A stretch of 64,000 nucleotides of DNA from Owenia fusiformis (lineage: Eukaryota; Annelida; Polychaeta; Sabellida; Oweniidae), in the NCBI GenBank assembly GCA_903813345.2, contig CAIIXF020000124.1:124001-188000 (forward strand), written 5' to 3'. Of the stretch, positions 29,601-59,600 are shown one piece after another (the stretch's first letter is position 1; each line of letters opens with the position of its first letter). The position numbers and the translations under genes are program-made. The notes under the pieces were generated by a model. The model ran no database searches. It was not told the origin of the DNA and was given only the letters and a program-made list of their open reading frames with translations.

Positions 29601-32600
29601 GTAAGAAAGATGCATCAGTAGATTATTAAGAACGTAAAATGTCTGATCGATAGACTGGTACCAGAGATGAGTTTTAGCCTTTGGTCAACAGGGATTTCAA
29701 TAGCAGCAGGCAACAAGCAATTTTCACCATAAAACCGCCTGTTGTTTTGAGGGACTTTTCCACATGAAGGTTTTTTGATTTCCATTAGTTTTGCCTGTTT
29801 TTCATTTTATTTAGCCTGTTGTGAGAAATTCTTGTGAAACCTCTAGTCAATGATAATATGTGCAATTTAAATTAACCACACCACACAATTTAAAAGTACA
29901 TGTAAAAATTTTATTTCACTACCAAAACAATGACAAAATTACAAAGTATAGATATGGAATTCTTGTTAATATATTCTTTATGCATGAATATAAACTTCAT
30001 GTATGTAACATATGTATTTTCATGATCCATCTTAAAAATCATTCTCAGAATTGGCATTTTAAATGATTACAGATCTGAAAGAAAGTTTGAGAAAGCTAGA
30101 ACATGACAGTGCAGATCTGAGATTCCTCAATAACCAATATGTTCACAAGATACGTGCCATAAAACAAGAATCTAAGGCAAAGACAGAAAAGATCTTGCAA
30201 CTCCAAGAAAAAAACTTCCAGGCTGTTGTGCAGACACCAGGTATGTAAATATATTAAAGCAGTCGCACACTGTTACTTAATCAAAATATTTTGATTCTTT
30301 ATATTAGAAATAAATTGATAACATAAAAAATTAATTGTAAGCTACTATTCTCTAGAAAAATTACATAAATTTTTATTAATTTGGATTTACCCTAACCTTA
30401 ACACAACAAAAGGCATCTTCTGCTTAACTAAAAAGCTCAAAAACTCAAACCACACTTTTAAAAGTTAATTAAAAGTTAAATAGATGTCACTCTTTTCAAT
30501 GCATTAATTACTTTAAACTATACATTTTGTCATGGGCTTTCAGCCCATGGTTCTGTTTTGAAATAAAAAATGTAAACTAAATATTTGCAGGTGGTAGGAA
30601 GAAATCAATTCCATTCAGACGCCAACGTATGGAGACTGATTGTCTCTTACCCCCCTCCACAACCCCATCCCCACCCCTACCTCAGGCCGATGACCCATAC
30701 GTCGCTGATCTACTTCAGGTAAGTGATGAGTCCTACTTTGATACATTTAATGTCACCACAACAATTGTTGAAGTCTCCAACTTTTTTGTGGATGGTGTTC
30801 GGCGTTGGTGTTTAGCATTCAGTGTCTGTAGCAAATGGCAGGTGGTGACATTTTGCATGTTTGTGCCTTATTATTATCCCATCGAACGAAGTTCGGAGGG
30901 ATATAGGGAACGCCTCCGTCCGTCCGTCCGTCTGGCCGTCGGTCCGTCCGGGCAATAACTCAAATACCGTTGGCCCGATTTTGTTCATATTTTGTACACA
31001 TATACCCTATGGGGGTAGAAGTTCTGCTCGAAAGCCGATTTTCAAAATGGCCGCTCATTTCAAAATGGTGGCCATTTTAGTGCCGATTTTACAGTAATTT
31101 AGGTGCAATATGTAAACTGTTATAGCAATATGTTTTAAATGTAAAAAGATGATAAAGGACAATAATAATGCTACAAATGTAGATGTTAAAGAAGCACATG
31201 GCAGCCATCTTGAAAAATGGCGGCCTTTACGCATCATTTTACGATTTTTGCTGTAACTCAAAAAATAGTGGATTTTGTTCATATTTGGTATGTGAATACT
31301 ATAAGCATTGCACACTGTCTAAAGACACTTTTGGTAGAAGGCGGCCATTTTGAAAAATGGTCACCATTTTAACGTATTTTACTATAACTTGAAAAGTAGT
31401 AGAGCGATTTTGTTCATATTTGGTATGTGAATACTATAAGCATAGCACACTGTCCTATGACACTTTTGGTAGAAGGCGGCCATTTTGAAAAAAAATTTGA
31501 AAATTGGCTGCCATTTTAACGTATGTTGCTATAACTCGAAAATTAGTGGAGCGATTTTGTTCATATTTGGTATGTGAATACTATAAGCATGGCACACTGT
31601 CCTATGACACTTTTGGTAGAAGGCGGCCATTTTGAAAAAAAATTTGAAAAATGGCCACCATTTAAACGTATTTTACTATAACTAGAAAAGTAGTGGAGCG
31701 ATTTTGTTCATATTTGGTATGTGAATACTATAAGCATGGCACACTGTCTATTTCTAATGACACTTTTGGTAGGAGGTGACCATTTTGAAAAATGGCCGCC
31801 ATTTTAACGTATTTTACTATAACTCGAAAAGTAGTGGAGCGATTTTGTTCATATTTGATACGTGAATACTTTAAGCATGGCACATTGTCTAATAAAACTT
31901 TGGGGAGTAGTCGACCATTTTGAAAAATGGCCAACATTTTTATGTGTGTGTTATTTTACAAGTACGTGTGCGATTTTTCAAAAATTTTAGAGGTGGCTAC
32001 TTAAAAGCATATTATTTCTTCTGATGACAACTTTGCTAGTGAGCAACCATTTTGAAAATGGTGGCCTTTCTGGTGTGTTGTTTTATAATATTTGCTATTC
32101 GTTTGTAAAAATGCCAGCCATTTCTGTTCGATGGGATACGCTACGCTTTGGCGTTGCCGTTGTTCTGGTTCATTTCAGGAAAGCTACATTTCTATTTATT
32201 TCATCAACAGATTTTATTGCAATAAGTTCATACAAGTGCAAATCATACAATACAAGGGACATTTTCGTCACAGTCCTTATTTGTAGAAATGCGAAATATG
32301 GTCTGTAATAGTATGTTTAATATATTAATTAATTTTATCAAAATTGGACTGTTTCTGGCTCACTTTTAATCAGGGTTTGAAACTGCTGCCGGACTGCAAT
32401 CACTTTTCACTCTGCAAAAACAGTTGCCTTTTGGGCAATAAATTGAGAATCGAATGCCAATAATGTGAATCTAGGCATGTTTTCAACTTTATTCTTGACC
32501 CCTACTTTTAGTTGAATATCTACAAAATCTGACTCTTCTTTCCTATATCTAGTATCTATGATATTTATGTTTTAGGTGGCTGACAATAGGATAGCTGAGC

Positions 32601-35600: not shown

Positions 35601-38600
35601 CACAAGTTTAAGGTAAAATTGCAATTCACAGATCACCAGTATCATCTAGTTTTATGATTTACATTAATCCATTTTAAATATTCGATAAATCAAGGAAGTA
35701 TGTATATTTTTCAATTCTTTTCAATATTATATTCCCCTACCAAAACCCAACCAAACGTGTCACCTATTTATCCATTTTTGTAATAAATGTTTAATTGATC
35801 GAGTCTTGCACTTAAATCTTTAGTAAAATATAGAGGGCTCTCAATTAAAATTTTTATGTTACATTTTCACATTGAGAAATATGTTGTTTCAAATTCCTTG
35901 AAATATTTTATAGTTGCTCAAACTATTCTACATAAACAGGACATCTGTAACAACTACAATTCTGTTCAATACTAAAAGAAATTCAAATTATTAGTCATTT
36001 AAGTTCAGCAAAAATATTATTAATTTAGCCACAATAAAGTACAGTAATTCAGAACTCAAAAATGACTATTGTTATATATAATAATGGAGTTTATATAATG
36101 CTTTTAGTAGTTGACCTTATTTTTTTCTCTATAAAACATCACTTCATTACAAGTATCCACAACCCTTGCAGTTCAAAAATATTCACACATAATAAATACA
36201 AACTTGTGAGTTTATCACATTTCATTAATTATTAATTATTTATAGATTTAATAAGCAATTGATTAACTGCATTATTGGGTTCCCAGTGGATAAAGTTATT
36301 ATGTCTGATATAATAGTTGTTAACTTTAACACTTCAACTCTTACATGTACACTCCCCTCCATAAGTTTGGCAACTTGAGGTTTTCATTTGATAGCATATC
36401 AAAGCCGAAGCCTGTTAACGTGTATTCTTAATTTTGTTTCTTAATTATAACTGTTCAGAAATTGAAGTCAAATTTGTTGATTTTTTAAAATACCAAACAA
36501 AAGCTTTAATTAGTGATCAAAAATGGGACTTCCAATTGCCAAACTTATGCTGAGGAGTGTATATTCAAGCTGTTAACGGTCTCCTATTAACCAAACAGAC
36601 CTTATTCAAATTGAAACCCCCTTTTAAATGAGCACTATTAATCAAATAGACTTGATGTTGTTAAGAACGCTACATTTCTAGTGACCTTTTTCTAACTGTG
36701 ATATTCGATCCATCAACGATATTCTACTACACCTGTTATTCAGTGTTAACAATGCAGAGTATTTTTAACAGCATAATTGACAGCACAGTTTGAATTAATC
36801 AGCAGGTATATAGATCCAGGTAAGCCACTAGTCAAAGCTTATAGATTATCGATTTAAATCTAAAGATTGCTTTTCTGTTCTTCAAATAGGCTTATGCAGA
36901 TTGACAATACGCTATTGTGACCTTTAACTGTATAAACAGATATGAATAAAATGTACGTTAGAATTTAAATACGCTAGGAGCAGTTAGCGTAAAGTATAGT
37001 AAAAATTTTCCAAGTAATTTTGAATGAGATGGTGGAGTTAATTTAGCAGAACAGGCCCAGTTTAAAGCCCCGCACTTGGCTATTTTGCACTCAGAAGAAT
37101 AAGTTATATATCAGGCTTCATTAGGCCGAGGAGCAATTTTTGGCTTTATTTTGGACAAGGAGCACTTTTAGGCTTTATTTAGCCAATAAGCAACAGTTCG
37201 TAGGCATTATTTGGCTAAGGGAGAAAAGTGAAGGCTAAGGTAGAAAAAGTGAAGGCTTTACCCTCATTGAGTCAAGAAACAGTAAATTCAGGCTATATGT
37301 ATGACAGCGTAGGACTAAACTCTTTACAAGGAGTTAAAGTTTCTGTAGAAAGGTAGAGACATCTATGCAGAAACAGAATCATCATGTCTACGAGGAGGTC
37401 AAGAAGCAAATCAAGAAGTTCTAGGGTAGGTTTCTTTGATGCTTGTTTGGCTTGAAGTTGTTTGGATATATTTGAATCTAACTACAGGCCTTCGTACCTC
37501 CCCCACTAACACACCTCCTCTGTGTGAGAAGTTTTCATACCTGTCAAGTCAAGTAGTGGGAGTGGGGAGCATGGCTTAAAGTCTTCAGGAATTTCAGGAA
37601 ATTTCAGGAAAAAATTGACCAAAATCTGACCCCATTGAGTTCAATACAAATCTGGATTTTTTTTTTGGGGGGGGGGGTAGGGGTCAAGCAAGGGATTCAA
37701 AATAAAGGTCATATTTGTTTAATTTTTTCCTATGAAAAAACTTTTTCTTCCAAATTTGAAAGCATATGTATTTGTGTCTACATAACTCGATAAAGCACTC
37801 AATCAAATCTCATTTTTCCAAAGTTTCATAGAAGGAGGACCTGCCAAAACCAACCCCTCGCTTGGCCCGCGTCTTTCGCCATACAATTTTCAGGAAATTT
37901 GAAATTTGTTGCTTTAAGCCATGGGGGAGGCGTCACAATCGAGTCGAGTAGAGGGGTTCAATTAGAAAATATGCATTTTCTTGGCAACATTTTTCAACTT
38001 GTCTGCAACTTTATAATTTACATTGATTCACATTTCACATTTCTCAATAAATTAATGAATCAATTTAAGTTATGCAAGGGAAAATTCAATACCCTGGAAA
38101 GTCGCTTGCGTCGTTGCGTTTCGTTCAGTGGATAAGCTGTGGCCACACGCCCATATCTGATTATCCAATTATCTGATTACGGATCATTTAATGACCAAAA
38201 ACACAACATTTGCATTAGAAAATAACTTTAAAGCTATGGCACTGATACCCCATACGTTTGTACGGGTAATTGTGCAGTATTAATCCACCATATAATACAT
38301 AGACAGAGTATTTTAGGTTAACATGCAATGCTAACATATACACTGATATTGCCTTGTATTTGTGTAACAGATCATCTTATTAAACAGAAATGTTATACAT
38401 GCACTCAATTCTTGTATTGAATCTCTGATTTTATATATGATTTGTGCCCCACTATGGTTGCAGTGATCTCCCCATGTCACTTTTACCGGGGGCTCCCCCT
38501 ACTTGAAACCAAAGGCCCCCCAGTTGGCACCCAGTTGGAATCTGCACTTCAACTTCTGATTTGAAAAATGAGTGAAGTAAGCACCTACACTGAGATATTG

Positions 38601-41600
38601 TGAGCGTAGCGAGTGCTGATTTTTTCAGACTTGAAATCTTGCACCCAGTTGAAAATTTTTTTTGGGGAGAACACTGGGTTGTGTTTGGTAGAGAAGGGCT
38701 TGTATTCCAATATGGTTTTGTGTGGGAGAGAAGGGGTTGTATTCCAATATGGTTGTGTTTGGTAGAAAAGGCTTGTATTCAATTATGCTTGTGTTTGAAA
38801 GAGAAAGGCTTGTATTCCAATATGGTTGTGTGTGGTAGAGAAGGGCTTGTATTCAAATATGGTTGTGTTTGGAAGAGAAGGGCTTGTATTCTAATATGGT
38901 TGTGTGTGGTAGAGAAGGGCTTGTATTCCAATATGGTTGTGTGTGGTAGAGAAGGGCTTGTATTACAATATGCTTGTGTTTGGAAGAGAAGGGCTTGTAT
39001 TCTAATATGGTTGTGTGCGGTAGAGAAGGGCTTGTATTACAATATGGTTGTGTTTGGTACAAAAGGGCTTGTATTCCAGTATGGTTTTGTTTGGTAGAAA
39101 AGGGCTTGTATTCCAATGTGGTTGTGTGTGGTAGAGAAGGGCTTGTATTCCAATATGGTTGTGTTTGGTAGAATAGGGCTTGTATTCCAATATGGTTGTG
39201 TTTGGTAGAAAATGGCTTATTTCCAATATGGTTGTGTTTGGTAGAAAATGGCTTGTATTCCAATATGGTTGTGTTTGGAAGAGAAGGGCTTGTATTGCAA
39301 TATGGTTGTGTTTGGAAGAGAAGGGCTTGTATTCCAATATGGTTGTGTTTGGAAGAGAAGGGCTTGTATTCCAATATGGTTGTGTTTGGTAGAAAATGGC
39401 TTGTATTCCAATATGGTTGTGTTTGGTAGAAAAGGGCTTGTATTCCAATATGGTTGTGTTTGGTAGAAAAGGGCTTGTATTCCAATATGGTTGTGTTTGG
39501 AAGAGAAGGGCTTGTATTTCAATATGGTTGTGTTTGGAAGAGAAGGGCTTGTATTCCAATATGGTTGTGTTTGGTAGAATAGGGCTTGTATTCCAATATG
39601 GTTGTGTTTGGTAGAAAAGGGCTTGCATTCCAATATGGTTGTATTTGGTAAAGAAGTGCTCTTATCCCAATATGGTTGTGTTTGGTAGAATAGGGCTTGT
39701 ATTCCAATATGGTTGTGTTTGGTAGAATAGGGCTTGTATTACAATATGGTTGTGTTTAGTAGAAAAGGGCTTGTATTCCAATATGGTTGTGTTTGGTAGA
39801 ATAGGGCTTGTATTCCAATATGGTTGTGTTTCGTAGAAAAGGGCTTGTATTCCAATATGGTTGTGTTTGGTAGAAAAGGGCTTGTATTCCAATATGGTTG
39901 TGTTTGGTAGAAAAGGGCTTGTATTCCAATATGGTTGTGTTTGGAAGAGAAGGGCTTGTATTTCAATATGTTTGTGTTTGGTAGAGAAGGGCTTTGTTTG
40001 TGTTTGAGGGAGAAGGGCATATATCACAATAGGATTGTGTTTGATGAAAGGTATCGGTGGTCTTAGAAAAACAGGGGTGGTTTGAGAAAGGTATGGATGA
40101 TATTCAGGGAAGATTAGCAGCCATTATTCAAACTTGATTCTCCGTTGCCTGCAGTTGAACAATTTAGTAAAATTATTTCTTCAAGGTTCTCTTTGGACCA
40201 AACATTTTGTTGAAAGATGGTCATTACAAATAATCTTTGGTAGTATTCAAACTTCCATGGAACAGTTCTTGTCTTCAAAATACAAGATCACTAAATTCTG
40301 GGAATTTGTGTGTCATATCATTATTTTTCTACCAAATTACTTGGGGAAATTTAATTATAAGTTGGATAAAACAGTCTCATTATAATATGACCCCCTGTGT
40401 GAGCATTATTGTTACCAAATGGTTCTACTCCTGAGTGGCAACGGAGTGTATAGTTTGAATGACAGCTTCCCATCCTCCTTGGATGGTATTTGAAAGGTAA
40501 AGTTGGTTCAAAAAAGTATGGGTGGTCTCAGAAAGCAATGGGTGATTTTAGGAAGGTTTCAGTGATCTAAGAAAATTATGGTTGGTTTGAGAAAGGCAAC
40601 ACTGATTTTAAAAATGGGTGATCGGTAAACAATTTTAGAGACCAATACAGTATTTTTTTTATGGAATGATATTCAATTGACTTTATTTTTTAAATTATAA
40701 TACATTTCAAGACTTTTTACAATTTAAGTGTACAGTGTATAACAATTCTTCACATTGATCCTGTCCCTAGTATAAAGTCAATGCAGCGTTTTGTAACATG
40801 TTCATTATAATGCTCTGAATATCTACCGAAGTTTGATGCGATAGTAAAATGATTGGTCCCTTTGATGGTAAAATATTCATGCGAAACATCAAATTCATTG
40901 AACTTATCGCTCAAATCACTTGCATCTTTTTGTAGAAATGGAAATTCACTTTCAGCACAGAATAAGAGAAATTTAGGAATGCCGATGCCATTCATGGCTC
41001 GATTTTTCACATGGGTGAGAGGTGAAGATTTCTCCCATTCTGATTGGTCAGTTCCAAATCCTGGGATGATTATGAAGTGTTTTGCCATCCACGATGTTGC
41101 AATTCTTGGTACGGAGTATACCCCAGACATCGATATGATTCCCTGGAATATATACAATTTTAGGGTGAATAACACATGACATATGGAATATGAAAGATAT
41201 GCATCAGTTAAGAAATAGCTATATGGAGTGTTTTCTGTTAAAATGAATTCTACAAAATGGTTCACATGATCATAGAATACATTCAAATATTATCATGAAG
41301 TTCTAAAGAAAACCATTATATTGATTGATTGCTTAATGATGGTTTCATTCAAATTGTTTTGTTGCAATTGTACCTTAATAACACTTGGGTGACATCCAGC
41401 ATTCGTGAGATATGTGTTGTCAAGAGCAAGCAAAGTTGCTAAGTGTCCCCCTGCTGAGTGTCCTAGGAGGACTATGGATTCTGGGTCATATTGTCCCTGC
41501 CACTTTCTAGATTTGTGAAGCCAGGATATACAACGGGCCACAGATTTTACGGGTTGCGGGTGCTGCACTATGGGCACCTGAGTTTGAAGATATAGCAAAC

Positions 41601-44600
41601 TCAATTGTGATGTCATAATGAGTATGATGCTGAATATCATCATCTGTTGCTGTGATGTCATGATGAATTGTGATGTCATGTAACTAATGAATGCAAGACA
41701 CACCGGGAGAAAAATTGCAGCTTGTTTTGTCAAGTTGTAATTCTGAGAATTGAACATGATTACTATCCATATAAGGAGTTGCGTGATGGCTCCGTGCATA
41801 CAGAGTATTGTGAGCAGTGGATTCAAATCGGTCCATGTAGTCTCTAAGAGGTAGTCTTGTAAATCAACCACTGTTGGACATCCCGAGATAGCCATTAATA
41901 TTAATCCTAATATAAATACAGCACCAAACATGAGGTAATTTGTCAAAAATGACGTGACCAGCTCAGCTATGGTCCAGGGAAATTGCAATCGGCTAATTGG
42001 ATAAGAAATAACTGCACATGGGATGCCATTTTCCGCAAGTGTTTTTCCGAAATTAGCGTAAAATCTGAAGATTAACTGATGTACAAGAGCCATAAAAATG
42101 TTAGTGTCATATCTTGATATGAAATATTTCCATGACGCGTGATGCCCTCTTCTCCAACCGCCGCCATGTATGAACACAACTAAAGGTGGCGCTTTTGTTG
42201 AGTGGCTCGATGACTTGTTTGAACCAACATCATTGTGAGAATTGTTATTATCTGGTTTTGAGTGGTGAGAATTATTGTCAAATATCTGTTCATTTGTGTT
42301 ACCATGTATACTAGAGCTAGGATCATCCTGTAGTCTGCTTGTACCACCCTGTAACTTTAGATCATCCTCTAGAGCATTTCCAGATTTTCCTGGAATATAG
42401 AGGTCCAACTCTCTCTTGTTTAGTCCATCCTTATCTGTCCATATCCATGATTTGTCACTTTCCGGGGCCATATGGTTTGTTTCATCATCATATGTAAGAC
42501 CGTGTACCACATGGACACTATGTTTCCCCTTCATAATCTTACATGCCTTGTCCTTATTCCTATGTTTTATATTTTTATTCATGCTTTGAGTTTGTTAAAG
42601 TTAATGCATGAATTAAATATGTTTTGGTATTTAAGTATCATTATGACATCATACAAAAGGCTCTCAAATCCAATCATGAAGATTGAAATCTTCACTTCTC
42701 CATACTTTCAAGTTTTGTGTGTGAGTTGTTTACTATAATGTATATACTTATGCTAGTACTTTATCAATACTGTTCCGCTGTAGTGTTATTTCTCCCTTAT
42801 ACACATTGCTCTAACAATATAGCACTTCAAGGTTAAATATTTTTTCACAATCTTTACTCTTTCATCACTTTAACGGGTCGCTGGATTTGTATCCTCTGTT
42901 TCTTAACACTTATTATAGCTCTCTGTCTCTTCAAGTTCACTTCATTCTTTTATATGGATATTTAATCACTTGCATGTCAGTATTTAACTTTACTGTTAAA
43001 CTATCTGAGATAAAATGTCCTGTATCTATTGACTCTCGACTGCACCAAGGGTTATTTGTACACATATTTGGTTAACAGAATAACACCTTTATATTTATAT
43101 CCTTTATATTTTGACTATTTCATTGGAAGAATCACTTTTGATTGAGTTTACAGTTTCTTAATGAAAAATAAGGGACAGTTCCATTGAGGTCCATTCACCA
43201 TGTGGTTCAAATGAACAGCATATTTTTTTATCTTATTGTAGTACAATGATATTGTAAATTTCAACCTTTACACGTGTTCACTTGTGATAGGGAATTATCT
43301 CTCAGGTATTTACTGCAATCTGTTGTGCACACAGGCATATCTATATCATTTGTGTACCTATGACCTCCTTTTCAAATCATAAAGTTCTATTGTGCATGTA
43401 TTTATGATACTCCCTTGTTGATGTTCAGTGGCAGCCTGCCAGTGTGCAGCATCATCAAACTTGAGGTCGATCCATTCCTGTTTTGTATTCATTCAGTGAA
43501 AATAGAACATATACCTGCCCTGTTTATTTTGCTTATGAAAAAATCGTTTAGCTATGGCTCTTTATTGATTCTTTCTTTCCTTATTGCATGCTCTATAGAC
43601 TATCATAAATTCAATACGAAAATGTAGATGTTTTATAACAGCACTCTGTCGGAATATATTCTCTCTCAAGTGGTAAAGTATATGATTTTTTACTAGCAGA
43701 TTTGTTAATACATTTCTTAGATTATTCTGTAAGGATTAGAACTGTGTATTTACTGTAATCCTTTTCTGTACTGTTGTCTGAATGATTAGAATTAGTTAAT
43801 CTATTGGTATATCATGCTTGCCTACTCTCTGCTTCATCAAACTGCTATTTATTCATCAAGGATGTGTTAAACTAATATATTACTTTCATGCTTAGTGCAG
43901 TTAAACCTTGTTAATAAGTGAAACATCTTTTGCTTTGGTTCAGCTTAAATGTGTTAACTGTATTAATCAAAGAGGTTTAGTTAACCTTACAATAATGACT
44001 CATGAAACTGAAAAATGTTCTTAGCACTTCTACCAGAGGTAGGTTCAGTTGATATTAAATTGATGGGTCATGAGGCTGGGAAAAGTGTTCCACAAGCTCT
44101 TACAAAGGTGTTCCACGGAGGTGTTCCACTTACAAAGGTGTTCCACTTACAGAGGTGTTCCATTTACAAAGGTGTTCCACTTATAAAGGTGTTCCACTTA
44201 CAGAGATGTTTAAGTCACAGGGTCATGAAACTGGGAAAAGTGTTACACCAGATCTTACAAAGGTGTTCCACTTACACAGATGTTCCACTTACAGGAGTGT
44301 TCCACTTGACAAGTTTCACTTTATCATTGTTAACAACTAAATTCTTAACACATTATTCAAAAAATAATACTTGTAAGGAAGTGATGAAAGTGCACATGAT
44401 CTTAGGAGTTATTGTGACCTCTAACAATTTCACATTTAGTACTTTAGTCAGTGTTATTTCATATGCATGCATGTACTTAATACTACTTATGTCTTTATTA
44501 TCCTAAAACAAAAAAAGTCCAATGTAAAATAACAGGATATTAAAGTTCCACAATATTTTGTCATATATAATATAATATTAGATATGAAATATGAGTTTAC

Positions 44601-47600
44601 AGTAAATTGATAAAGATTTGATATGATATCAGTTAAGATTAAATTTAATTCTGTCATTTTATATGTCAAGTGATTCAAGTTCATTGTACTTATAGACCAC
44701 TTATATGTCGAACAGTCATTGTAACAATTCAAAAATTTGACCAGAGTGTCATCTTTAGACCAACATCGACCCAGGGTTTTAATTATTGGTGCAAATTGTG
44801 AGAAAAGATTTAGTTGACTCGACTTTGAATATACTGGATGTTGACTAAAAATGTGTTTTTTGATGTATTTATTTTTACAATACATGTGCAATGTATTAGA
44901 AACAGTACAGAGCTCCTCTTATATCAGAATTTTGAGATTCAGCACCTCCAATAATTCTAGGTACATTCAATGAAGATATTTTGTCCAAAATTGCAAAAAC
45001 CTACAATGTTGCGTTTAAAATTACAAATTAAGCAATTTCACCTCCAACAAAAACATTTTAGGAGAGCAGGAGCAGTGTAGCATTTGCAGTAGATGTTATT
45101 GTAATGTCACCACCACAAGTGGTGTCATATTATAGTCTCCAAATTTTTTTGTGGACAGTATTTGGCATTTGATGACTGGTGTTTGGCATTTGGCAGTTAG
45201 TGTTCGATGGTTGGTGTCTGTAACAAATAGCTGGTATTAACATTTTGCTTGTTAATACCTTGTATAGTTTTGTTATTCATCATCAAAACTAGCTTGGGCC
45301 ATATACCCCACCTGCACGTCACAGGCCAGATGAGAAGCGCTTCATAGCCCTGGAGCTGTGTTAAAGCCTGAATATTTGCAATTAAAATTTGATAAACAAT
45401 AACAACATTCTTTTAAAAAAAGAACATCTGTTAAAGTTACATTACTTCAACAAAAAAAACTAGTGGAACAACTCCACTTTGCAAATTATCAGGAAATGAT
45501 TTTATCAATTTTCTCATCAGCATGCTTCAAATTTATTTAATGATTATTTGCAATGATAACTGTGTTCCAATTATCCTCCATTGGTTACTTTTAGCTTGTA
45601 GTTTCATAGAAATCGACTTTTCTCATAATTTCCAATACATCATTGTTTTTAGTAAGAATCGTAATGTTCCCAATAATTTTCTATTTGAGTACCAAATATA
45701 CTATACATGTACATGTTTAATACAGAGCATTTGTGGCATTCATTATAGTGTTTTGGGTTCGTGCTTAACATTCCCTGGCTGGATCCAATCTATCTCTCTC
45801 TGTTTGACAATGCAGCTAAAGAATGAAACCAAAAGGCAAAATTATTAGAATTTATAATTTTAAACATGGAAATGTCACAAATCCTCAAACCAATGGATTA
45901 ACCAACTAGAAAAATAACCGATTAAATAACCGATTAAAATCGTGACAATACATCTGAAATAACACCATGGAAATACCGAAAATAAAAGGCAAAGTTATTG
46001 GAATTTATAAGCAAAATTCCTAAAAAAATCTGGTGCTTTTGGGTTAAAAACTGGAAAAAATTAACCCCATGTTAATTAACCCATGTATTATGTTTTGCAG
46101 GTTGAGGCCAGGGATGCTGAAGTTGACAGACTAGGAAGGATGTTGGACGGGGGTCGACCCTACGATGTTGTTGCCCTTGAGGCCAGAAACAGAGCCAATG
46201 AACGCCTTATATCTCAACTCAATATACAGGTAGGTCATGTCAATAAATGTTTTTCATCTCATGATACATATATTTGAATTCAATATATACTGGTATGTCA
46301 ACTCAATATTCTTATTTGTGTAATTTCCTGTAAGAAGAATTTTGATTTACGCCTGAGTCACATGTGCTCTGATTCATCGGCCTTCGATACTAAATACTCA
46401 ATCGGGTGGGCGACAGTTATTTTCTTGTATTCAATTTTCAAGTTTCCTGAACAGTCAATATGGCATTACGAAAATGGGTCTTCTGCGCATGTTAGAATTT
46501 TTCTTCAAACTCAACTTTTGTTCAAGTTGATACAATTGTCTTCCGAACTAGAGACTTAATTTTTCGAAAGATCTCAAAATGGTTTATCTATACTGAAAAT
46601 CTTAGATCCCAGAACGGATCATACGCTTTTGATTTTTTGAAGTGAGTTTCTATTGATCGGCAGATTTCTCTGACTGTTATTGGGTATTCCCAATTGGTTC
46701 GTTTCTAAGTACGAATATCTGCACTCTTATAACATCGGAACGACTGCCATATTTGAAATGAAAATATCACTAAATAGAGCTTTGCGCATTTCAGAATAAA
46801 TGGACTGTGAAAATGACTACATCCCCACTTACATGTTGTTCAAAAATTTTCATCTTTGAAATATATTGTAGCTCCTGATGATTTTAATCCTAAAATCACT
46901 GTGACATAGCATTAAATTGAAGAACAGACCCATTAGATTAACACAAGGGAAAATGTAATGTTCTACAGTAGCACAGATTTAGAAGAATGGCCTTTCATTT
47001 TAATTATTTATAATTTGTGCCGCATGGTCCAGTATGATATTTTCACATGAATACACAAAGGTAGTAGAAAATTATTAATTTATGAGGTTGTGGCAAAACA
47101 TGTAATATCTTTGGCTAGAGGTTAGTGTGTCAAGGCTTTGACTTTGTTATTTGCAATGGTTGGGAAGCAATGGCGTACCTTTGGTACTTTGGAGCAAAAC
47201 AAATTGTAAGTAATTTGATGAAAAGTGTTTGCTCTTTTTTTTAATTAGAAAATAATTGATATTTAATAGCGAAACTACCTGTTAATTAGCATTAGTTTTG
47301 CATTCATTTAAACAAATGAAATTGCCAAATTGAATGATATTAATGATGTTAATCAGGCTTTAAGGAAATTCAGGCAAAAAATGGAGTTACAATTAAAACA
47401 CTCAATTGGTTGTAGGTCAGTCAGTAAGCTTTGGTTAAATTTTCCTCATTTAAAATAATTTAGAATCACAATGTGTAATTGATTTTGTTACAAGTATTAA
47501 TTTTCCCCCTTTAAAATAAGGCAGTGATCTGACCCGGGTGCACCCCAGTTGTCCGAAACCCAGTTGTCTGAAACCCAGTTGTCCGAAACCCAGTTGTCCG

Positions 47601-50600
47601 AAACCCAGTTGTCCGAAACCCAGTTGTCCGAAACCCAGTTGTCCGAAACCCAGTTCTCCGAAACCCAGTTGTCCGAAACCCAGTTGTCCGAAACCCAGTT
47701 TTCCGAAACCCAGTTTTCCGAAACCCAGTTCTACGAAACCCAGTTCTCTGAAAAATTTAGTCATAATTTACCAGATAAAGGGGGACGCACCTCAGGCCAG
47801 TTTCATGTCATTTATTTGGCAAAATTAATGGCATGGACGCATTCTGATGTATAGATCTCGCTCTCACTTTGAATTGCATCCATTACACGGCGTTATCAGA
47901 ATGACAGGAACGGGGGATTTATTTTACATTGTGATTCTAAAAAAGCTCATCAAAACACAATATATATTACGGAACAGTTGATCTTATCTTATTCAATATA
48001 TTTTATATAGGCAAAATAAAATGAAACATTTTGAAACCGATAAAATAAGTTAACGCATAAAACTTTAGGAATAAACAGTACACATATTACGTTGTCAAAA
48101 TGTTTCGTCGCATTTAATTTCTTAGTCTCTGTCTCTTATCAAATCGTAAAATGTAAAAGAACAAAACATTCTAAACTTAATCACTTGGGATTAACTGGAA
48201 ACGAAGACAGGCTGTCCTCGTATCAAATTGGATGTTCTCCCATTCGCAAGAAGTTTCATTTTCGCCATGTACTCACTTCATCTTTTTGAATTTAATCTCT
48301 ATTTCTCGAACAGAGTACCTAAAATGAAGAATACTTTTTGGTTTCAAAAGATGTACACGTCAACTTTACTAAATAAATGCCCACTGGCTTGGTAAAACTA
48401 TTTCCCTTTTATGAACGCCCATCACACATTGGAAAAATGTTGTTCCCTCTCAAAAATCCCCATGGGGCATAAAGAAAATTGGTTTAAAAATTGTAGACCC
48501 CTATGTATGTTAATATGTAAACGCCACTTTGCAATGAGAATAGCATAATTTAACTTTGTTTATTTGAAGATCTGTATCACCTGTATTTTCGTCTTTCGAC
48601 AGTTTTTATTAGGCTAAATACTGGCCCATGGAGGAATCGTTCAGTTGATATTTACTCTCAAATACACCCTTTACCAATGAAAGAGTGCTCGTTCATAGAG
48701 CTGGATGGATTGGAGTGAAATATGTCAAGTGGAACATTTCAGAGTGCCAAGACCAACTCATTAATGTTAAATGGACCTCTCTCACTACGCTTGCCTTGGG
48801 GCCTCCGTACGGCGTATCCAGTTTTTTACACGCCACATGGTCGCGGTATAGAAATTATAACTCGGAGTTATAATATTTGTTCATTTCTGAGGTCCCGTAG
48901 AAATCAACTGGCTCAACAAGATTGAATCATTATTTGTCAATGTTTCACGATCACTTTTCCTAGCACTATGAATAACATTTATAAATTGCCCTGATGTAAA
49001 TAAAATGAAAAAAAGTATTATTTATCAACAGAAATTTAAATTCACCGTGCGGCTGCCTTGGGAAATGTGACTGTAAAAGTATGAGAGCGCAGAAATTCTA
49101 CGGCGAGCGTGGAAAAGCTATTGGCCGTAGAAATGATAGACCGCACGGTGGCCGTTGGAAATGTGACTGGGGTGTAATTCCCACAAATTGGGGACACATA
49201 TGCAATCCACGTTATTCTTCAGGGACAGAAAATGCAACCAATGATAAAATAAAAAATTGCATTTTGAATCCGACTGAGTCCTATTGATCCTCATAAATTA
49301 CCCCCTCCTCATACCAATTAAAATGTGCCCATCGTGCGCCTAATGCTAATGGCGCTGTCACACTGGTCGTGTCCCGTACCGTCTCTCAACGTACAAAGCA
49401 TTCAGGCCAAAATTTAAGGAATTAAGCTAGAGTGAGCTGTTTCAGAACGCCGTCTGAAACGCGTTCTGATTCTGAACCCACTGTATGCATTGGACGGTGG
49501 GAGGTCGTCCCTGCTTACACTTTCAGTATCTGACCCTATTATCACACCAAACTAGTTCTCACTACGCTCTCGAGAACGGGCTTAAACTGTATGGACGGAT
49601 TGGAAGTACTTAGAACCGTTTGGGGTCTACTTGCCTACTCGAAAGGGTAGTTCCAAAATTTCCACGTGGTCATCACTTTCTGCAATCACGCGGTCTTCGA
49701 CCGTTAATTGGAATTTTTGACCTGCCAGATGCTTGAAAATCAAGGATTGCGAGTCTCATATTGCACCGTTTTTCTTCCATTATACCATTAAAAGCAAAAC
49801 AAAGTTGCCTTTCTGTCGGTGCATTACTTTATTGTAAAGAGTTTCTCGTTCTAGCAGCGTTTTGGTCCCCACTCCCCAGCTGTTAGAAGGCCTTCTTACA
49901 GCTTGGGACCAAAATTACGCTGGAAGTAGGAACTCTGTTTAAGATGATAACGTACCATCAGAAAGAGATTTTTGTCATGCTTTGAATGGAACAAGTTTGA
50001 AGAAAAACGGTGCAGTATGAGACTCGTAATCCTTGATTTTCAAATATCCGGTAGGTCAAAAATTCAAATTAACGGTCGAAGTTAGGACCGCGTGGCAATT
50101 ATATCGAGTGACAACGTACTAACGACGAACAGGATGTGGGGCAAAGGTTGAACTGTCTCAGAATGTATTGGGAACGAGGTAGAAATAAAGAATTCATATG
50201 AACGAGTCATGCAAGATACTAAAGAGATACAAATGCATTTTGATACTCAGTTTTTGGGCAATTAAAACTCCCTGTCTGCATTGAGAAGTTATTTATTGTC
50301 CGGTGTATAATTTTGAAACATTATCCTAATTTTTCACAAAACTTTTTTTTGATTCTGCAATAATGGTTGACATCTATGGCACACTAAAAACGAATTTTTT
50401 TATGCAGGGTACGTACATGATACAGATCAAATCTTGGCTCTACTACAAACTATTACACACTTACTTCAACAGTTCAATATATCGCAAAACACAGTTTTGA
50501 TTTTGAACAATATCACCAATGGGAGAAATTCTTAAATCTAAATGTTTGGAAAGGAATACGTTTCTACTAAAACATACAAGCCTCTTATATTATGATGAAA

Positions 50601-53600
50601 AAAGGATAGACATCTGATATGTATATATGCCACATATATAAGTTATACGAAATGAGCATATTTTATTGATTTATCGAAAATTTGGACGAAATCTTAACAA
50701 TGGGTGGTACTGAACAACCAAAATCTTCTTTTTAGATATTTTTCAGGGTAGAAATATTATCAATTGATATTGGAATACATAATTAACCATATATATTATT
50801 GAGAAAAGGGAATGAAAAAAATTATCAAATTAATATTATATAATTGTCACGGACGTCCATACGTTATTCTAATGAGATAGATATTCCTTTCGCCAGAATA
50901 TTCTCTTCGACTGTGATAATTGTCTAAAATGTTGGCGGCAGTCTTGAATTTTCACCAAGAAGGAGTGCGATTCGTGCTGGACAATGCGGTTCAAAATTTG
51001 TAGAATGTCCATATAAGTCTATGTGCCGAGAATCTAGTAAGAATATATATATGATCGTGAACTTTCGGACCCATTATTGACCGGGCTAACCGGAACTGGG
51101 TTTCGGACAACTGGGTTTCGGACAACTGGGTTTCGGACAACTGGGTTTCGGACAACTGGGTTTCGGACAACTGGGTTGACCCCATCTGACCCCAGCTTTA
51201 AATCAAGTGGACACAGCACCCACCTGAGATTTTAAAAACAGGCTAGGACCCACCTGAAAATCTATTTGCTCCCACCTGAAAATGAGAAAAATAATGTAAA
51301 CAGGCATATTTTGACCAATTTTGGTCTGAATTGTAAAAATGAGTAGTTGTCACCCACTTGAGAAAAAATCATGTGAGAACACTTAAAGGGATAAAATTTT
51401 ACCTAATCCCACAGAAACTGATCATTTTCTAAGATGCCACAAATTAACTGTCCATTTTCTAAGATAGTGCCAAGCAAACCAAGAAGAATGCTCAGATATG
51501 AGCTAATTGAGAGAGCAGCTCAGTTACAAGCTTGACAAAATCCTAATGGTTTTCTGGGTTGTATCAGGAACTTTATATGACACAGATAATCATTTTCCAA
51601 TAGTTCAACATAAAAATATGAACATTGTATTGATCAGACCAAGTTTTTCTCCTGTATATTGTTACCACAATCAGTACAAAAGATATTGATAAATTCTATT
51701 CTATGATTCATAATTCCATACATTCCAGATTGACTACCTCCAACAAAAGAACAGGGAGGTCGAACATCGTCTCTCGGAAGCAGAAATTTATGAAAGAGAG
51801 GCTTTAGACAAATCGGTGAACTTTGAATCGAAGGCTCGGCAGTTAGAGGATGAACTACAGGATGTAGACTTATTAGCATCGAGGTTAAAAACAGATAAAA
51901 ATGCAGCTTTACGAGTGGCTGATCATGAATTGGATGAAGCTAAGGTGAGATTATCGTCAGCTCAAGGGACATTTATGGTCTTAAAAGTTGATTGTTTCGA
52001 TAATAGTAATTAAATATTTCTGACCATTTATATAGGAATAATACACCAATGCAGTATATCATGTCAACTATTGGTCATATAAAGTCATTCTTAGCAGAAT
52101 TCAGGGCAGAATTTAGAATCAACTTACTGCTAATTTTCAAAAACTTTTTTTCAATTCTATATATGAGAAAATCAAGGCATTATGAATATAGTAAACATAT
52201 TACATGTTTACTTGTTTCACCAAAACGGGTCAGAATTTATTGGAAAAAGTCTGTTCGTCTTATTTTAGACACATCTCCAAAACATCTTCTCAACATCTTT
52301 AGTTTCCTTAGGAGAAAAACTTCAACATTCAAAATTCAACATGCAATATTCTTATTTTGTCTTGTCTAGCTTGAGTAAGACCAGTGCATAATTGTAGTAT
52401 GTTTCATATGCCTCATATTGTTGTTGTGTTATTGTATTTAGGTTGAGCTTGAGAAGTCCAGACAAGAACTTGAAGATATGGATGTCCAGGTTGCACAACT
52501 CAGAGCTGTGAGTACCAGCTTATATACCCTTTGGAAAACTACACTATGAATAAGGCAGAATTCTTTGCTCTTAAGCCTATATATCAAATCAGAATATATA
52601 TAGTTGAAAATCATGACAAAAGGTTATGAATTTGCAGGTTCATTTGATATTGTTAAAATCTCGGCATCAAAACTGTTAAAGCATACTGTTAAATAGTAAA
52701 TACAGTACTTTGAACATGTATATCTGGTTCTGGATAATACTCTAGGTACACTGTACATGGGTATACTATACTTACTGAGGTTCTATTTACATAATAACAT
52801 GTGGAAATATACGGCATAACCTGTCCTAATGAACAACTCTCTCTTATGGACACCTGTCTCTAGTGGACACCCTTCCTCTGCACACACTCTACTGACTTCT
52901 GTATAAATAACCCTCTCTGTAGTGAACATCAACAACACTGAAAGTTGTTTCTCTGCAAGAAATGTTCAATATAATTATACAGAATTTACTAGGGAATGGG
53001 ATGGATATTATATCTGTACCTATATGGGGTACTTCCTCAGGAAATATGTGCACCTCAACCGGCATAAACCTTATATCCAGACCCTCTCAGTGCATAACCC
53101 TTATATATCTGTGTATTACAGGAAAGAGACAGGTTATTGAATGAACAAATAGATCTGAAGTCAAATCTCAATACTAAAACAGCAGACAATCAACGTATGG
53201 ATGACCTGGTGGATAAAATGCAAGCAGACAAGAAAAGACTCAGCAGTCGTGTAAATAAACTAACATCAAATGGTAAGCAGCTTTGTATTAAAATGTCATC
53301 TGTTAAGAGTGGGGTTTACTTCATTTAGAGGAAGTGTCACTCTTTATTTTTTGTGACGGAAATTCCCTACAAAACTTTGCTTATCAAACATATTTTGTTC
53401 CTGATATTTGAAGAAATTTTTTGAGAAACAATGAAACGTCAGTAAAGCAAATTAGAAGGTGGTTTCATATTACTTCAGAAGTTGATTTTGAACTGTGAAG
53501 TACAGACATGGCTTTAAAATCACCAAAAAGTCTTGTGACATTCTGCATTTCCTCCAAGTTTAAGATTATGAACTTTTATTGTGTCACCACCAGAAGAGGT

Positions 53601-56600
53601 GACATTTTTGTTATCTTCTTCAGCTTTTTTTCTGAAAATAAAATTTTATTTTTTATTATTTTATAGAAAGAGAACTTGTTCTAGAAATAGAGCGACTCAA
53701 AAATAAAGCAGCGCCTAAAAGGAAAGGTGGAAAATCAATCAATAGACTAGATTCGTTTATAAAAGGCTTAGAAGAAGAAAGAGACTATTGGCGTGAAGAG
53801 GTTGATGCTTTACAAAAATTACTACGCCTTCATGGGCCAGGAAGTAGTCCCATGAGGTCAAGGTCACCAAGTCGCTCAAAGGTTTCCACGCCAGCAGGAA
53901 CTCCTAGTAAATCTGAAAGAAAGGTGAATCTATATATATTTTTTTTTAATTATGAATAATCAATATTTAATACATTGTAGAATTCTAAAAACAGCGCACA
54001 GAATTGTTTCACTGGCACTCTCTTATATTCATAAAAGTTATTTTGACACATAAAACATAAACACCTGCTTTTGACTCTTTCCTCTCTAAAACTTAACTCA
54101 CATATTATAAAGAATTTATCATTTTGATTGAACTTCTATGCATAAATCTGGTGAATGTGATACAGATTTTAGATACATTGAGCTAAAAAAGTTGTGCGAA
54201 AGCTCTGTAATATCACCACCATGATTATCATAGTTCTGTTTATTTTTGGGGAGAATCTTATTATTTTCATCAAGTTTAAGACACGTTCCCAAGTTCCTAT
54301 GTGGGTGCAGATAGGAGCAAATTAGAATATTGTATTTAACGATCTAAAAGCCTTGTAGTCAAACTTCAGTCAGTAAATTTGAAGTTTCTGTCTTCTTATT
54401 CCAGACTGCTGCTCATTACGAGACAATCATGCGAGTGTTAGAGGATGAACGTGATCACTACAAACGTGAATATGAACTACTTCGTGCACTCAGACACAGT
54501 AGGCCAAATAGTCCAGTCAGGTCAAGGTCACCAAGTCTCAGGGAAATGGTAAGTTTGACAATTGCATTAGTCGGTTTATGATAAAACATGAAAAAGTACA
54601 CATTTAAAATTGATTTTTTTAGGATTTAAATCGACATATGGGAAATGAGAAAACTGTTTTTGAAATTTCAGATATTGTTTTAAGTTTCTCTTTAGATTAT
54701 GTTATAAGATTAAGACTTTGATATTTGCAAGTGAAAATTGCTTGCTAAATAAACATTTTATGTGATTACATATGGAAGTAAAAAAAACATGATCAAATGA
54801 AAAAAGTTACAAGTAAGGTAATTGCTTTGCATTCTCCGAACTCAGGGCTCCAGAAAGAGGAATAAACAGAGTTAATGATGTCTTGAACCCTTCATTTGGA
54901 GTATGGTTGCTTTGTATGTTTCATATTCTGTTCCAGAGTGTTGCTGATGAAACAGAACTGTTGCGTGTTACACGAGAGCGTGATGAACTTCAGAGTATGC
55001 TGAGCAAATTTGAACGCCACATGGCAGAGGTAAGATAACTTTGGTGTCCAATTGTTAACAGTTGTGAAAAACATATTTTGATTTTCTGAAGAGGAGCGAG
55101 TAAATGATGATTTCTTACGTAGAGAGGTGCAGCTTTTTTAAGTTATCACGAAAAAGGCTAATCAACATTTTAAATTTTGAAATGGGGAGGGAATCATGTT
55201 TGATAATAACAGAAAAAGGTTCATATTTGAGTCTATCCATTGTGTAAGTTACATATTACAGCTATAACCCTTTAAGAGATAGATATATCATAGTGGTACT
55301 TCTCATTAATTTGAAATGTTTATTTGTCCAGATCCAGACCAATGTAAAGGTGCTAACAAATGAAAGAGACAAAGTCAATACAATGTATGAAGAGGTATGT
55401 AGAAAGAGGTTATCCTCTGAGAAGTTCAGGATATTGGAATTATCCAGAGGCAGCTGTGATCAGTATCCACTTATTAATATTTTTGTTTATTTGTATAAAA
55501 GCTTCAGAAATAAGAATCCTTGTCATATTGAAAATGTGCATTGTTTCATCCCATATGTTTGTCTAAAATTCATAACTACTTGATGCACCTCAACAAATTG
55601 TAATTATTGTAAATTTTAAACTTCAAGTACTTAAGTATGCATCATTGTATAATAATGTATATTAATTGATTAAAATTGATCCAACAGGCCAAATTAGAGT
55701 TGCAAAGAATGCGCAGGGATGTTGTCAGGTCGCCAAAGTCTCCCAAAGTTTCATTGGCAGCTCAGGCAGTATTACGACGTGTTGAACATGAGCGAGATGA
55801 CGCAATAGCTGACCTGCGACGTATGACAACAGAACGCGACACACTCAGGGAAAAATTAAAGGTAAAATATTTTTGTCGATAATTTCAGAATTTTTTTGAT
55901 CGCATGATAAATGAGCCAACTTTACAATATATTGAAGTTCAATTCAATTCAATTATTTATTTCATAATTCTTATATAATATACACTATAAAAACAAGCCG
56001 CTAGACACCCTAGTGGGTATATGTTGCGGTTTAACAGAAATCATTAAAATGACAACTAGACTACATATAGAAAACACTTATATTATGTTACATGTAGGTA
56101 TATAAAAATGGTATTAACAATTAATCTAAGGATGTACAATGTAAAAATGTTACAAAAATCGGGTACCAGTATAAAATCAACAGTATAGTATGATATTGGT
56201 ATTATACATTATCAATAGATGAGTAGTTTTTTATATGAAGATTTGAAAATATTTAGAGTGGAGCATTTTTTAATATCATGTGGTAGAGCATTCCAAAGAT
56301 TAGGACCCAGATAGCGAAGGGAAAGTTTAGAGCATTTAGGGATATGAATATTAATGTTGATATCAAACAAGTCTTGAAATAGATTTTTTGGAAGACTGGG
56401 GTGCTTATTAAAGATTTTGTACATGAACTGACCAGTACAATATCTGTTGACATCAAAAATATTTAATATTCTAAGATCTTTAAATAGGGGAGCGGAGTGA
56501 GAAAGTCTATCCTTATTTAAAGCTAGCCTTAAGAATTGTTTCTGCAGTTTATGTAGACGATCATAAAATGATTTAAATGTGTTACCCCAGATTATGTTGC

Positions 56601-59600
56601 AATAATTTAATTGAGAGTGTATCAATGAGTAGTAAATTGTTTTGAAACTGTCTATTTGAAGTAGATGTTTAATGTGATAAAGAGAACCAATGACGCGAGA
56701 AATCTTTGTTTCAACAGATTTTATGTGCTCTTTAAATTTCAAGTTTTTATCAATAATAATTCCAAGAAAGTCAATTTTTTCCCGGAAATTTATGTTCTCA
56801 TTGCGTATTTTAAGATTCAGATTTGTTTGATTTTTTTGGGGTCCAAATAGAATAGCATTGGTTTTGCCAATATTAAGTGAAAGTTTGTTTGCTTTTATCC
56901 AGTCATCTATTGAATTCAAGTTTGCATTAGTTCTAGTCATGAGTTCATTTAAATCATAATCACTATCAAGAAGATTGGTGTCATCAGCAAACATAATAAA
57001 TTTTAGATTAGGGGCAACAAAAGGCAGATCATTTATGTAAAGAATAAATAAAAGTGGTCCAAGTACCGAGCCCTGCGAAACACCACAATTTAGAGATGAT
57101 TGTTTAGATTCATAATTGTTAATGGTGACATATTGTTTGCGGTCTTTTAAATAACTTTCAAACCAGGACTTAGCTATTCCTCTGATGCCATAATATTCAA
57201 GTTTTTGTATCAAAATGTCATGATTAATTGTGTCAAAGGCCTTGGAAAAATCTAATGTTATGCCAATGCTTGTTTTCCCCAAATCAGTTGATTTTCGAAT
57301 TTGTTCAATGAAATATAAAATGGCCATGTAGGTAGAGTTGAATTTCTGAAATCCAAATTGATAAGTAAAAATAATTTCAAAACGTTCTAAAAAACCAGTG
57401 AGTTTGGCGTGCATGAGCTTTTCTAACAATTTAGAAAATACAGATAAAACTGAAATTGGTCTATAGTTCGAAGGATTTGTAGTGACACCTTTTTTAAATA
57501 CAGGTGTTACTTTGGCCAATTTGAGGGCGTCTGGGAAAATACCAGATTTAAAAGATAAGTTAAATATATACAAGAGTGGATCAATTAAAAACTGTCTTGC
57601 AGACTTAATAAGTGATGGTAGAATCCCATCAGGTCCAGGCGAGGAAGATTTTAGAAGACACATTTCTAATTCAAGCTCAGTTTTTGAGGTCTTTTTGAGA
57701 TAAATAGATGATTGAACTTTTTGAGCTCTAGCTAGGTATTCATTAAAGCATTTTTTGGAGTTTGGAATCTCCTTGGCTAGATTTTTACCAATATTGGTAA
57801 AAAAATTATTAAATCCATTGGAAATGATTTCATGATCTGTTGTTTCCTTTCCATTTATAGTGAATTTAGATGGCAATGCAGCTTTTTTGTTTTTTCCAAG
57901 TAGTTCATTAATGATAGACCAAGACTTTTTAATGTTACCACTTACTTCGGCAAACTTATTTTGATAATGTGTACGTTTTGAGTATTTAATTATTTGCTTA
58001 AGTTTATGGTTGAAGGACTTGTAAGCTTTTCCTGTTTTGCAACAGGGATTTTTCAAATATTTGGTATATAGCTTATTTTTAGTTTTGGCAGAAGTTAAGA
58101 TGCCAGAAGTCAACCAGGGTCTATTAGGATCATGATTAACTTTGATAAATTTGGATTTGAGTGGAAATGAAGAATCATATTGTTCCATTAACAAGTTAAT
58201 GAAGATATTAAATGCTATGTTTACATCTTGACTAGCTACTAGTCAAGGTCAGGAAATCTGGATTCCTATTTATGGGCTTTAGATCAAAGCACAATCGACG
58301 AGTCAATTTCTTGTGAAGAATACTCAGTAATTTAATTGTTTATTTCTAGATTGCAACAGAGAGCCATCTATCTGATAGAGCCAGACTAGAACAGAAAATA
58401 GAAGATCTCGAACGAACAATACAAGCTGTAAGTATATATAGATTCTGGAGAAAGTCTTTGTGATATATTTTTAAATGTCTGAATGAACAAGGGTCGATAA
58501 ATAAAGTTTTTTACCCTTGGCTCTAGACTTTATAATAAGAAGAGTTGGATGTTCAAACTTTAACACATGTAGAGTAGTTAGTTTGCTTGAAACCCTGTGC
58601 TTGAAATGCTTACACCATTTTTTTTTTTTTTTGACCACCAATGAAGGTGAGCAATACCTCTTGGGTATATCCCGTATATATACGGTTGTAATTTACGTAA
58701 TTAACCCAGAAACCCTCCTTGAAGGAGCCCTGTGTTCTTTTATGTGCACTTATACATAGACATACAAGTGCACACCACAGCCTTTTGTACGAGTTGCGGA
58801 CCACTCAGTCACACACCCTGAAGTACTTCACGCAAACAAGCAAATTTATAATGTAGCAAATGATAGTTGGACATTTAACTTTATAAAATTTACTTAATTC
58901 ATGTGGTATATGTGCTAGGTTGAGGCTGATATACAGATTGTAGTGTAAAATTGTAAAATAAGGTAGCAGTACTGTTAACAATTGCTATTGTTACTTATTG
59001 TGCCAAATACCCATAGGTTGAAGCTGAGCGAAATGATCTCAATATAAGAATAGCTGCTCTTAAAGACAAGGGAGACAGAATGGAGGACCACATAAAAGAA
59101 CAAGTTATAACACTGGGAGAAACACAAGATGATGCATCTCAACAGAAAGCAGCTGCAACACAAATGAGGTAAAATTTCATGTTGCTGATATCTTCTCTGC
59201 ATTTGGGGTTTGCTCTTGTTTAGAATTTCAAAATGAGTTTCCATGCAATTGAATATCTATTTGAAAGTCTTGAGGCATATGATTTTGATAGTCAATAGAG
59301 AAGGCCATAATTTTTTTGTTAGTCTGATAGAACAGCTCAATTTGGAATATATTTTTTGATTTCATATTCCTACATACTTTCTGTCTGATTCATTATGGTG
59401 ACATATGTATACCAGTAATCAAAATCAAGTTTAGATTCGTTGAGAGTTAAACCTGTCGAATCCGAATGGCACTGAGACCAGTCAAAAGTATTATATTAAG
59501 CATGTGCTCATATTTCAAGGTTTACTAATATGTGAATCAATTTAAAATTAGGACAGAGGTGTTACTGAACTAACCCAAATAAATGATTGCTGTATTAGGT

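Follow-up and report, generated by a model that had tools for sequence, protein, structure and literature searches.

A transposon with opposed arrays of a 15-bp repeat as termini, nested inside an older MITE

Two arrays of a 15-bp word, pointing in opposite directions, interrupt a MITE in the stretch of DNA analysed here (64 kb in all, and referred to below as the window), and the question raised by this locus is what kind of element the arrays terminate and what would move it. The locus is a transposon with array termini nested inside an older MITE. We consider it most likely, with a probability of roughly 0.7, that the element is a cut-and-paste DNA transposon of the foldback type which belongs to the Mutator-like (MULE) superfamily, is non-autonomous and is moved in trans.

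The window looks eukaryotic, with a retroelement ORF, a hydrolase ORF and what by eye are short exons with splice-like edges. Two of the seven window ORFs scanned yielded a Pfam family, RVT_1 in the retroelement ORF at 56212–58242 and alpha/beta hydrolase in the ORF at 41293–42594, while the window gave no Rfam match at gathering score and no tRNA gene. A probable exon at 46101–46229 and a coiled-coil-like ORF at 59552–59914 lie on the same strand, one on each side of the element, and if these are parts of one gene then the element is in its intron. We take the exon to resemble CEP135/TSGA10; Pfam and PDB searches gave no support for naming it, and a literature search to name the flanking gene found nothing.

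The sequence-only reading had proposed a 3.65-kb transposon caught in a MITE, with inverted arrays of about 14 and 5–6 units at its ends and a 9-bp direct repeat as its boundary, and each of these proposals is borne out by measurement. The whole element, as defined by its inverted-repeat ends and the flanking direct repeat, occupies 3648 bp between array-defined ends (47536–51183, without an assigned strand), has a GC content of 0.38 as against 0.35 for the window, and lies in a MITE that can be rebuilt from its flanks. The left array (47544–47753, forward strand) consists of 14 units of CCCAGTTGTCCGAAA, eight of which are exact, with 8 mismatches in 210 bases. The right array (51101–51175, reverse strand) has five full units, all of them exact, and a decayed sixth lies inward of these at 51086–51100, keeping only CCCAGTT(C) before it decays inward. 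The element thus has the long inverted terminal repeats of short tandem repeats that characterize foldback elements, here as 14 and 5(+1) opposed 15-bp units, and the interior bases just past the arrays differ between the left and right sides. When up to three mismatches are allowed, the 15-mer has 22 matches in the 64-kb window where 1.13 are expected from shuffles; 19 fall in the two arrays, and the other three each carry exactly three mismatches. Neither BLASTN nor a 15-mer scan found a second copy of the element within the window. Three patterns of the unit, exact or degenerate, had no matches among viral contigs, and one such pattern had none among prokaryote genome contigs, a set restricted to prokaryotes that says nothing on the host.

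The units of the left array are not uniformly conserved. Seven of its eight mismatches fall in the inner half (units 8–14), with a p value of 0.009 in a permutation test weighted by position that was picked after the pattern had been seen. Five of the eight are at unit position 8, and the decayed unit of the right array has a C at that position, as do left units 8, 13 and 14. On both arms the inner units are more varied and the outer units uniform, as would be expected if the arrays grew outward or if the outer units were still being levelled; selection acting on those units may be a further cause, which a single copy cannot distinguish from growth or levelling. We also note that GCACCCAGTTG occurs exactly twice in a MITE at 38461–38676, a possible sign of kinship with the array word, the shared stretch being short.

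Each array is closed off by an 8-bp terminal cap, GGGTGCAC on the left (47536–47543, forward strand) and, read inward, GGGGTCAA on the right (51176–51183, reverse strand). At both ends the cap and the first array bases together read GGGTNNACCC. On the left these bases form the perfect 10-bp palindrome GGGTGCACCC (10/10 positions), and on the right they contain GGGTCAACCC, which begins one base inside the end and pairs everywhere except at positions 5 and 6. The sequence GGGTNNACCC, which is its own reverse complement, has three sites in the window, namely the two element ends and one at 46151 in the probable exon. The end palindrome is a weak indication by itself, because 4+4 palindromic arms of any sequence are present in 490 of the 63,990 10-mers of the window and the right palindrome starts one base in; its likeness to the end of Muta1, considered below, was spotted after the fact and serves as a lead.

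Directly outside the caps are two identical copies of the 9-bp sequence ATCTGACCC, at 47527–47535 and 51184–51192 (neither with an assigned strand), so that the ends are flanked by a target-site duplication (TSD), as expected of a foldback element. Among 200,000 placements drawn at random with similar spacing, 2 gave an exact 9-bp match and 211 did so when both edges were allowed to slide by up to 5 bp, and since random placements so rarely give a match, a 9-bp repeat at array-defined ends is not a product of chance. A chance origin was therefore rejected both for the arrays, by the shuffles, and for the duplication, by the random placements. The right end carries an extra G (51183), which can be counted either as additional to a 9-bp TSD or as part of a 10-bp TSD with one mismatch; the exact length of the TSD is blurred by this base.

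The two fragments of the interrupted MITE lie immediately to either side. The left fragment (47522–47535, forward strand) carries the terminal repeat CAGTGATCT and takes in the left copy of the TSD, and the right fragment (51193–51383, forward strand) was recognized by a BLASTN match to the MITE at 60138–60334. The flanks had been proposed to rebuild the family of this second MITE, and when they are joined over one copy of ATCTGACCC they indeed align end to end with its reverse complement, from the terminal CAGTGATCT to about position 51383, the left part contributing just 14 bp and the site containing an extra GA. The right flank alone (51190–51383) matches the MITE at 77.4% over 199 columns (BLASTN). 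The local alignment score rises from 171 to 188 once the left 14 bp are added, and 135 bases of the left flank alone score 18; because this score is low, the left part of the MITE depends mainly on the exact CAGTGATCT being found at the expected position of the MITE end. The GA dinucleotide was present in the target MITE and is absent from the copy at 60138–60334 (CAGTGATCTGACCCCAG as against CAGTGATCTCCCCAG). Both duplicated copies carry it, showing that GA predates the insertion, and a 4-bp TSD (ATCT) with GA counted as element sequence was rejected on the grounds that GA is present on both sides. The MITE pattern had no matches among viral contigs, and MITE and satellite words returned nothing from the literature text.

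The interior of the element (47754–51083, without an assigned strand) has no recognizable coding sequence, as judged by a six-frame Pfam scan, with X at stops, and by ORF lengths. No Pfam transposase was found in it at E≤1, and its longest stop-to-stop ORF, leaving aside those that run into the arrays, has 92 aa. The transposases of MULEs (MULE DDE) and of the DDE_Tnp_IS1595 type are both absent from this copy in all six frames, as expected if it is non-autonomous, and it is from this lack of a transposase that the copy appears to be so. A transposase remnant or captured Pfam domain was also considered and rejected, the only line at E≤1 being DUF6986 (E 0.18), which is below the cut-off and was taken as noise. 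The interior also contains a hairpin (49687–50094, without an assigned strand) with arms of 183 and 190 bp and GCAAT on both flanks, which is probably a second, nested inverted-repeat element. A stretch of AAAGGGGGA is located at 47777–47785, inward of the left array.

Since there is no transposase in the copy, its superfamily must be judged by the length of the TSD and the structure of the ends, and the MULE name that we infer from these features in a single copy is to be taken as a leaning and not as a filing. The TSDs of MULEs are 8–11 bp in length (PMC6446971), a range that includes the 9 bp seen here (or 10 bp with one mismatch). Long terminal inverted repeats (TIRs) with subterminal tandem repeats, a frequent if not universal feature of MULEs that is seen in Muta1, Muta5 and Tm1, are also present, and it is the TSD length together with the published plans of these three elements that favours the MULE superfamily. 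Foldback structure is described as having arisen in more than one superfamily. The family itself had been put down as unrecognized and stays so: six 12–13-letter pieces of CCCAGTTGTCCGAAA gave single-word matches only in the literature text, none of them on transposons by title. The kind of element is known, examples being the foldback-type MULEs Muta1, Muta5 and Tm1, and what is new here is at most the name of a family.

Several other origins can be weighed against a MULE. It is very improbable that there is no transposon at all, and that the locus consists of two minisatellite arms produced by an inverted duplication or an assembly error; arrays in inverted orientation can be produced by foldback replication or during assembly, and further minisatellites are present in the window, but the duplication is perfect and lies exactly outside the caps, and the MITE is cleanly interrupted and rebuildable. 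It is unlikely that the element is a non-autonomous foldback whose transposase is of the Merlin (IS1016/IS1595-like) rather than the Mutator type. Merlin elements are described as having TIRs of 24–462 bp, terminal GG and 8- or 9-bp TSDs, with which the GGG ends and 9-bp TSD of the present element are compatible, and internal tandem repeats have been reported in them. However, such repeats are given as internal in the Merlin descriptions available to us from that source (PMC8101967), and not as opposed terminal arrays of a word of about 15 bp, a plan that is described as common in MULEs of Aedes aegypti and present in Tm1. It appears quite unlikely that the element is a foldback resembling Galileo, in the P-element superfamily, or one from a different superfamily, for example hAT. 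The duplications of P elements and Galileo (7–8 bp) and of hAT elements (8 bp) differ from the 9 bp seen here in being shorter, and a GGG end is unlike the ends of hAT and P elements. Galileo, from Drosophila, does share with the present element long, internally repetitive TIRs, which in Galileo contain several THAP-domain binding sites, but its TIRs are more than 1 kb in length and its transposase is of the THAP/P type (PMC3688188).

Membership of the sea-urchin TU foldback family is possible, if doubtful, and is a matter of family name that is compatible with the foldback/MULE reading. TU elements are foldback elements of the sea urchin. Their inverted repeats are long, with 15-bp tandem repeats making up an outer domain, and their middle segments vary. 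Other papers cite reports of foldback elements from this animal, and also a study of its TU transposons. Compared by description only, the two agree in the 15-bp repeats of the outer domain and in a modular middle, and the middle segment of the present element contains a nested hairpin; the TU duplication, however, is 8 bp and not 9 bp.

If the element is a non-autonomous foldback-type MULE, then this copy would be passive, supplying the ends, while the cutting and joining would be carried out by a transposase encoded at some other locus of the genome. Binding of such a transposase to the repeated 15-bp words would mark out the two ends; cleavage would take place at the GGG caps, and insertion into a target site cut with a 9-bp stagger would leave ATCTGACCC duplicated. 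The arrays would be putative clusters of secondary binding sites that raise the affinity and specificity of binding. Slippage or unequal exchange might alter the length of each arm's array independently, the outer units near the caps staying the most uniform. That the arrays are repeated transposase-binding sites, or that they grow by slippage, are ideas already in the foldback literature, and their extension to this element is a plausible prediction. It is improbable, in our view, that matters go further and that the element represents a foldback family not named before, whose transposase has the 15-bp word as its putative main recognition unit, whose arms both extend outward and are homogenized by inter-arm exchange, and in which unit number acts as a heritable dial of mobility.

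The wider question is whether transposase binds the tandem repeats at the ends of foldback and Phantom elements. The tandem repeats of Galileo have been shown to hold extra transposase-binding sites, and the authors described this in 2013 as untested for Foldback and Phantom (PMC3688188). The layout of the present element suits a test of binding because its unit is short, regular and unequal in number on the two arms. The insertion, which is clean and whose empty site has been rebuilt, should help to put a name to the family in the host. The locus alone changes no general view.

Among known systems, Rehavkus is grouped near MULEs and is described as having long TIRs, a minisatellite before the 3' TIR and a PHD-finger transposase (PMC6446971). 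The grouping and the combination of long TIRs with a minisatellite are points of likeness, although its minisatellite precedes the 3' TIR, whereas the present element has arrays at both ends and no protein. Further parallels are found among the long-TIR MULE families of Ae. aegypti, 10 of 12 of which have subterminal tandem repeats of 9–15 bp (PMC5225508). Muta5, with an 8-bp terminal motif, nine copies of a 15-bp repeat and an 8/9-bp TSD, has nearly the layout of the present element. Muta1, whose TIR is long and complex, is placed among the type-2 foldbacks, and its derivatives vary in repeat number and have interiors that are unrelated; the 10-bp terminal motif of Muta1 is an imperfect palindrome with positions 5 and 6 unpaired (PMC5225508), as is likewise the case at the right end of our element. 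Both Muta1 and Muta5 encode a transposase, unlike the present element, and the likeness to them noted here is one of layout.

Tm1, a Mutator/foldback family of the nematode Meloidogyne, has asymmetric 7-bp end motifs, tandem repeats of about 14 bp that are unequal in number on the two arms, and a purine-rich Motif D; its commonest TSD is 9 bp, with TSDs of 8–10 bp in 45 of 53 complete elements, and a MULE transposase is described in one class of its members, most members being without one (PMC3169594). The unit consensus of Tm1 (CGATTCAGTATCCGC) and its end motifs (CGGTTAA/CCTACCC) are different sequences from those of the present element, but the two are alike in their short asymmetric ends, in the unequal repeat number of their arms, in a 9-bp TSD and in being found, in Tm1 for the most part, free of a transposase.

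The flanks of a second CAGTG-ended MITE in the window (38461-38676) hint at a 5-bp target-site duplication for this family, as GGTTG stands on either side of it (38456-38460 and 38677-38681). The insertion point of this copy falls within, or at, the outermost repeat of the satellite array at 38677-39994, which comprises about 36 units of 37 bp. The flanks of the MITE copy at 60138 were also compared, and no comparable 5-bp match was found there; those of the MITE that holds the foldback (the 3648-bp transposon at 47536-51183, which ends in opposed arrays of 15-bp units) read only TAAGG and AAAGG, as against GGTTG and GGTTG at 38461-38676. An exact MITE terminal repeat also stands alone at 28688-28702, where the remainder of the MITE is absent and 22 bp are identical to the end of the intact copy at 60138-60334. 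Further complex tandem repeats are present at 446-1373 and 31271-31940 (units of 19, 105, 157 and 175 bp, and of 147 bp), with unit sequences different from those of the foldback.

Given probable plus-strand exons of a coiled-coil gene at 46101-46229, 59552-59914 and 60410-60470, the foldback would lie within an intron. The gene may be CEP135/TSGA10-like, a likeness for which Pfam and PDB searches provided no support. Across the left boundary of the foldback there is a 21-bp inverted match (19/21 identical), with one arm outside the element (47459-47479) and the other within it (47921-47941), which may be a chance product of AT-rich DNA.

Two structures were noted in the foldback interior. A short segment at 49043-49150 has the edges CACCGTGCGG and CCGCACGGTG in inverted order, and no clear flanking duplication was found around it by eye. 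The other is a nested hairpin at 49687-50094, with ends CACGCGGT and 5-bp GCAAT flanks, whose CAC end and 5-bp duplication are reminiscent of Transib-type elements.
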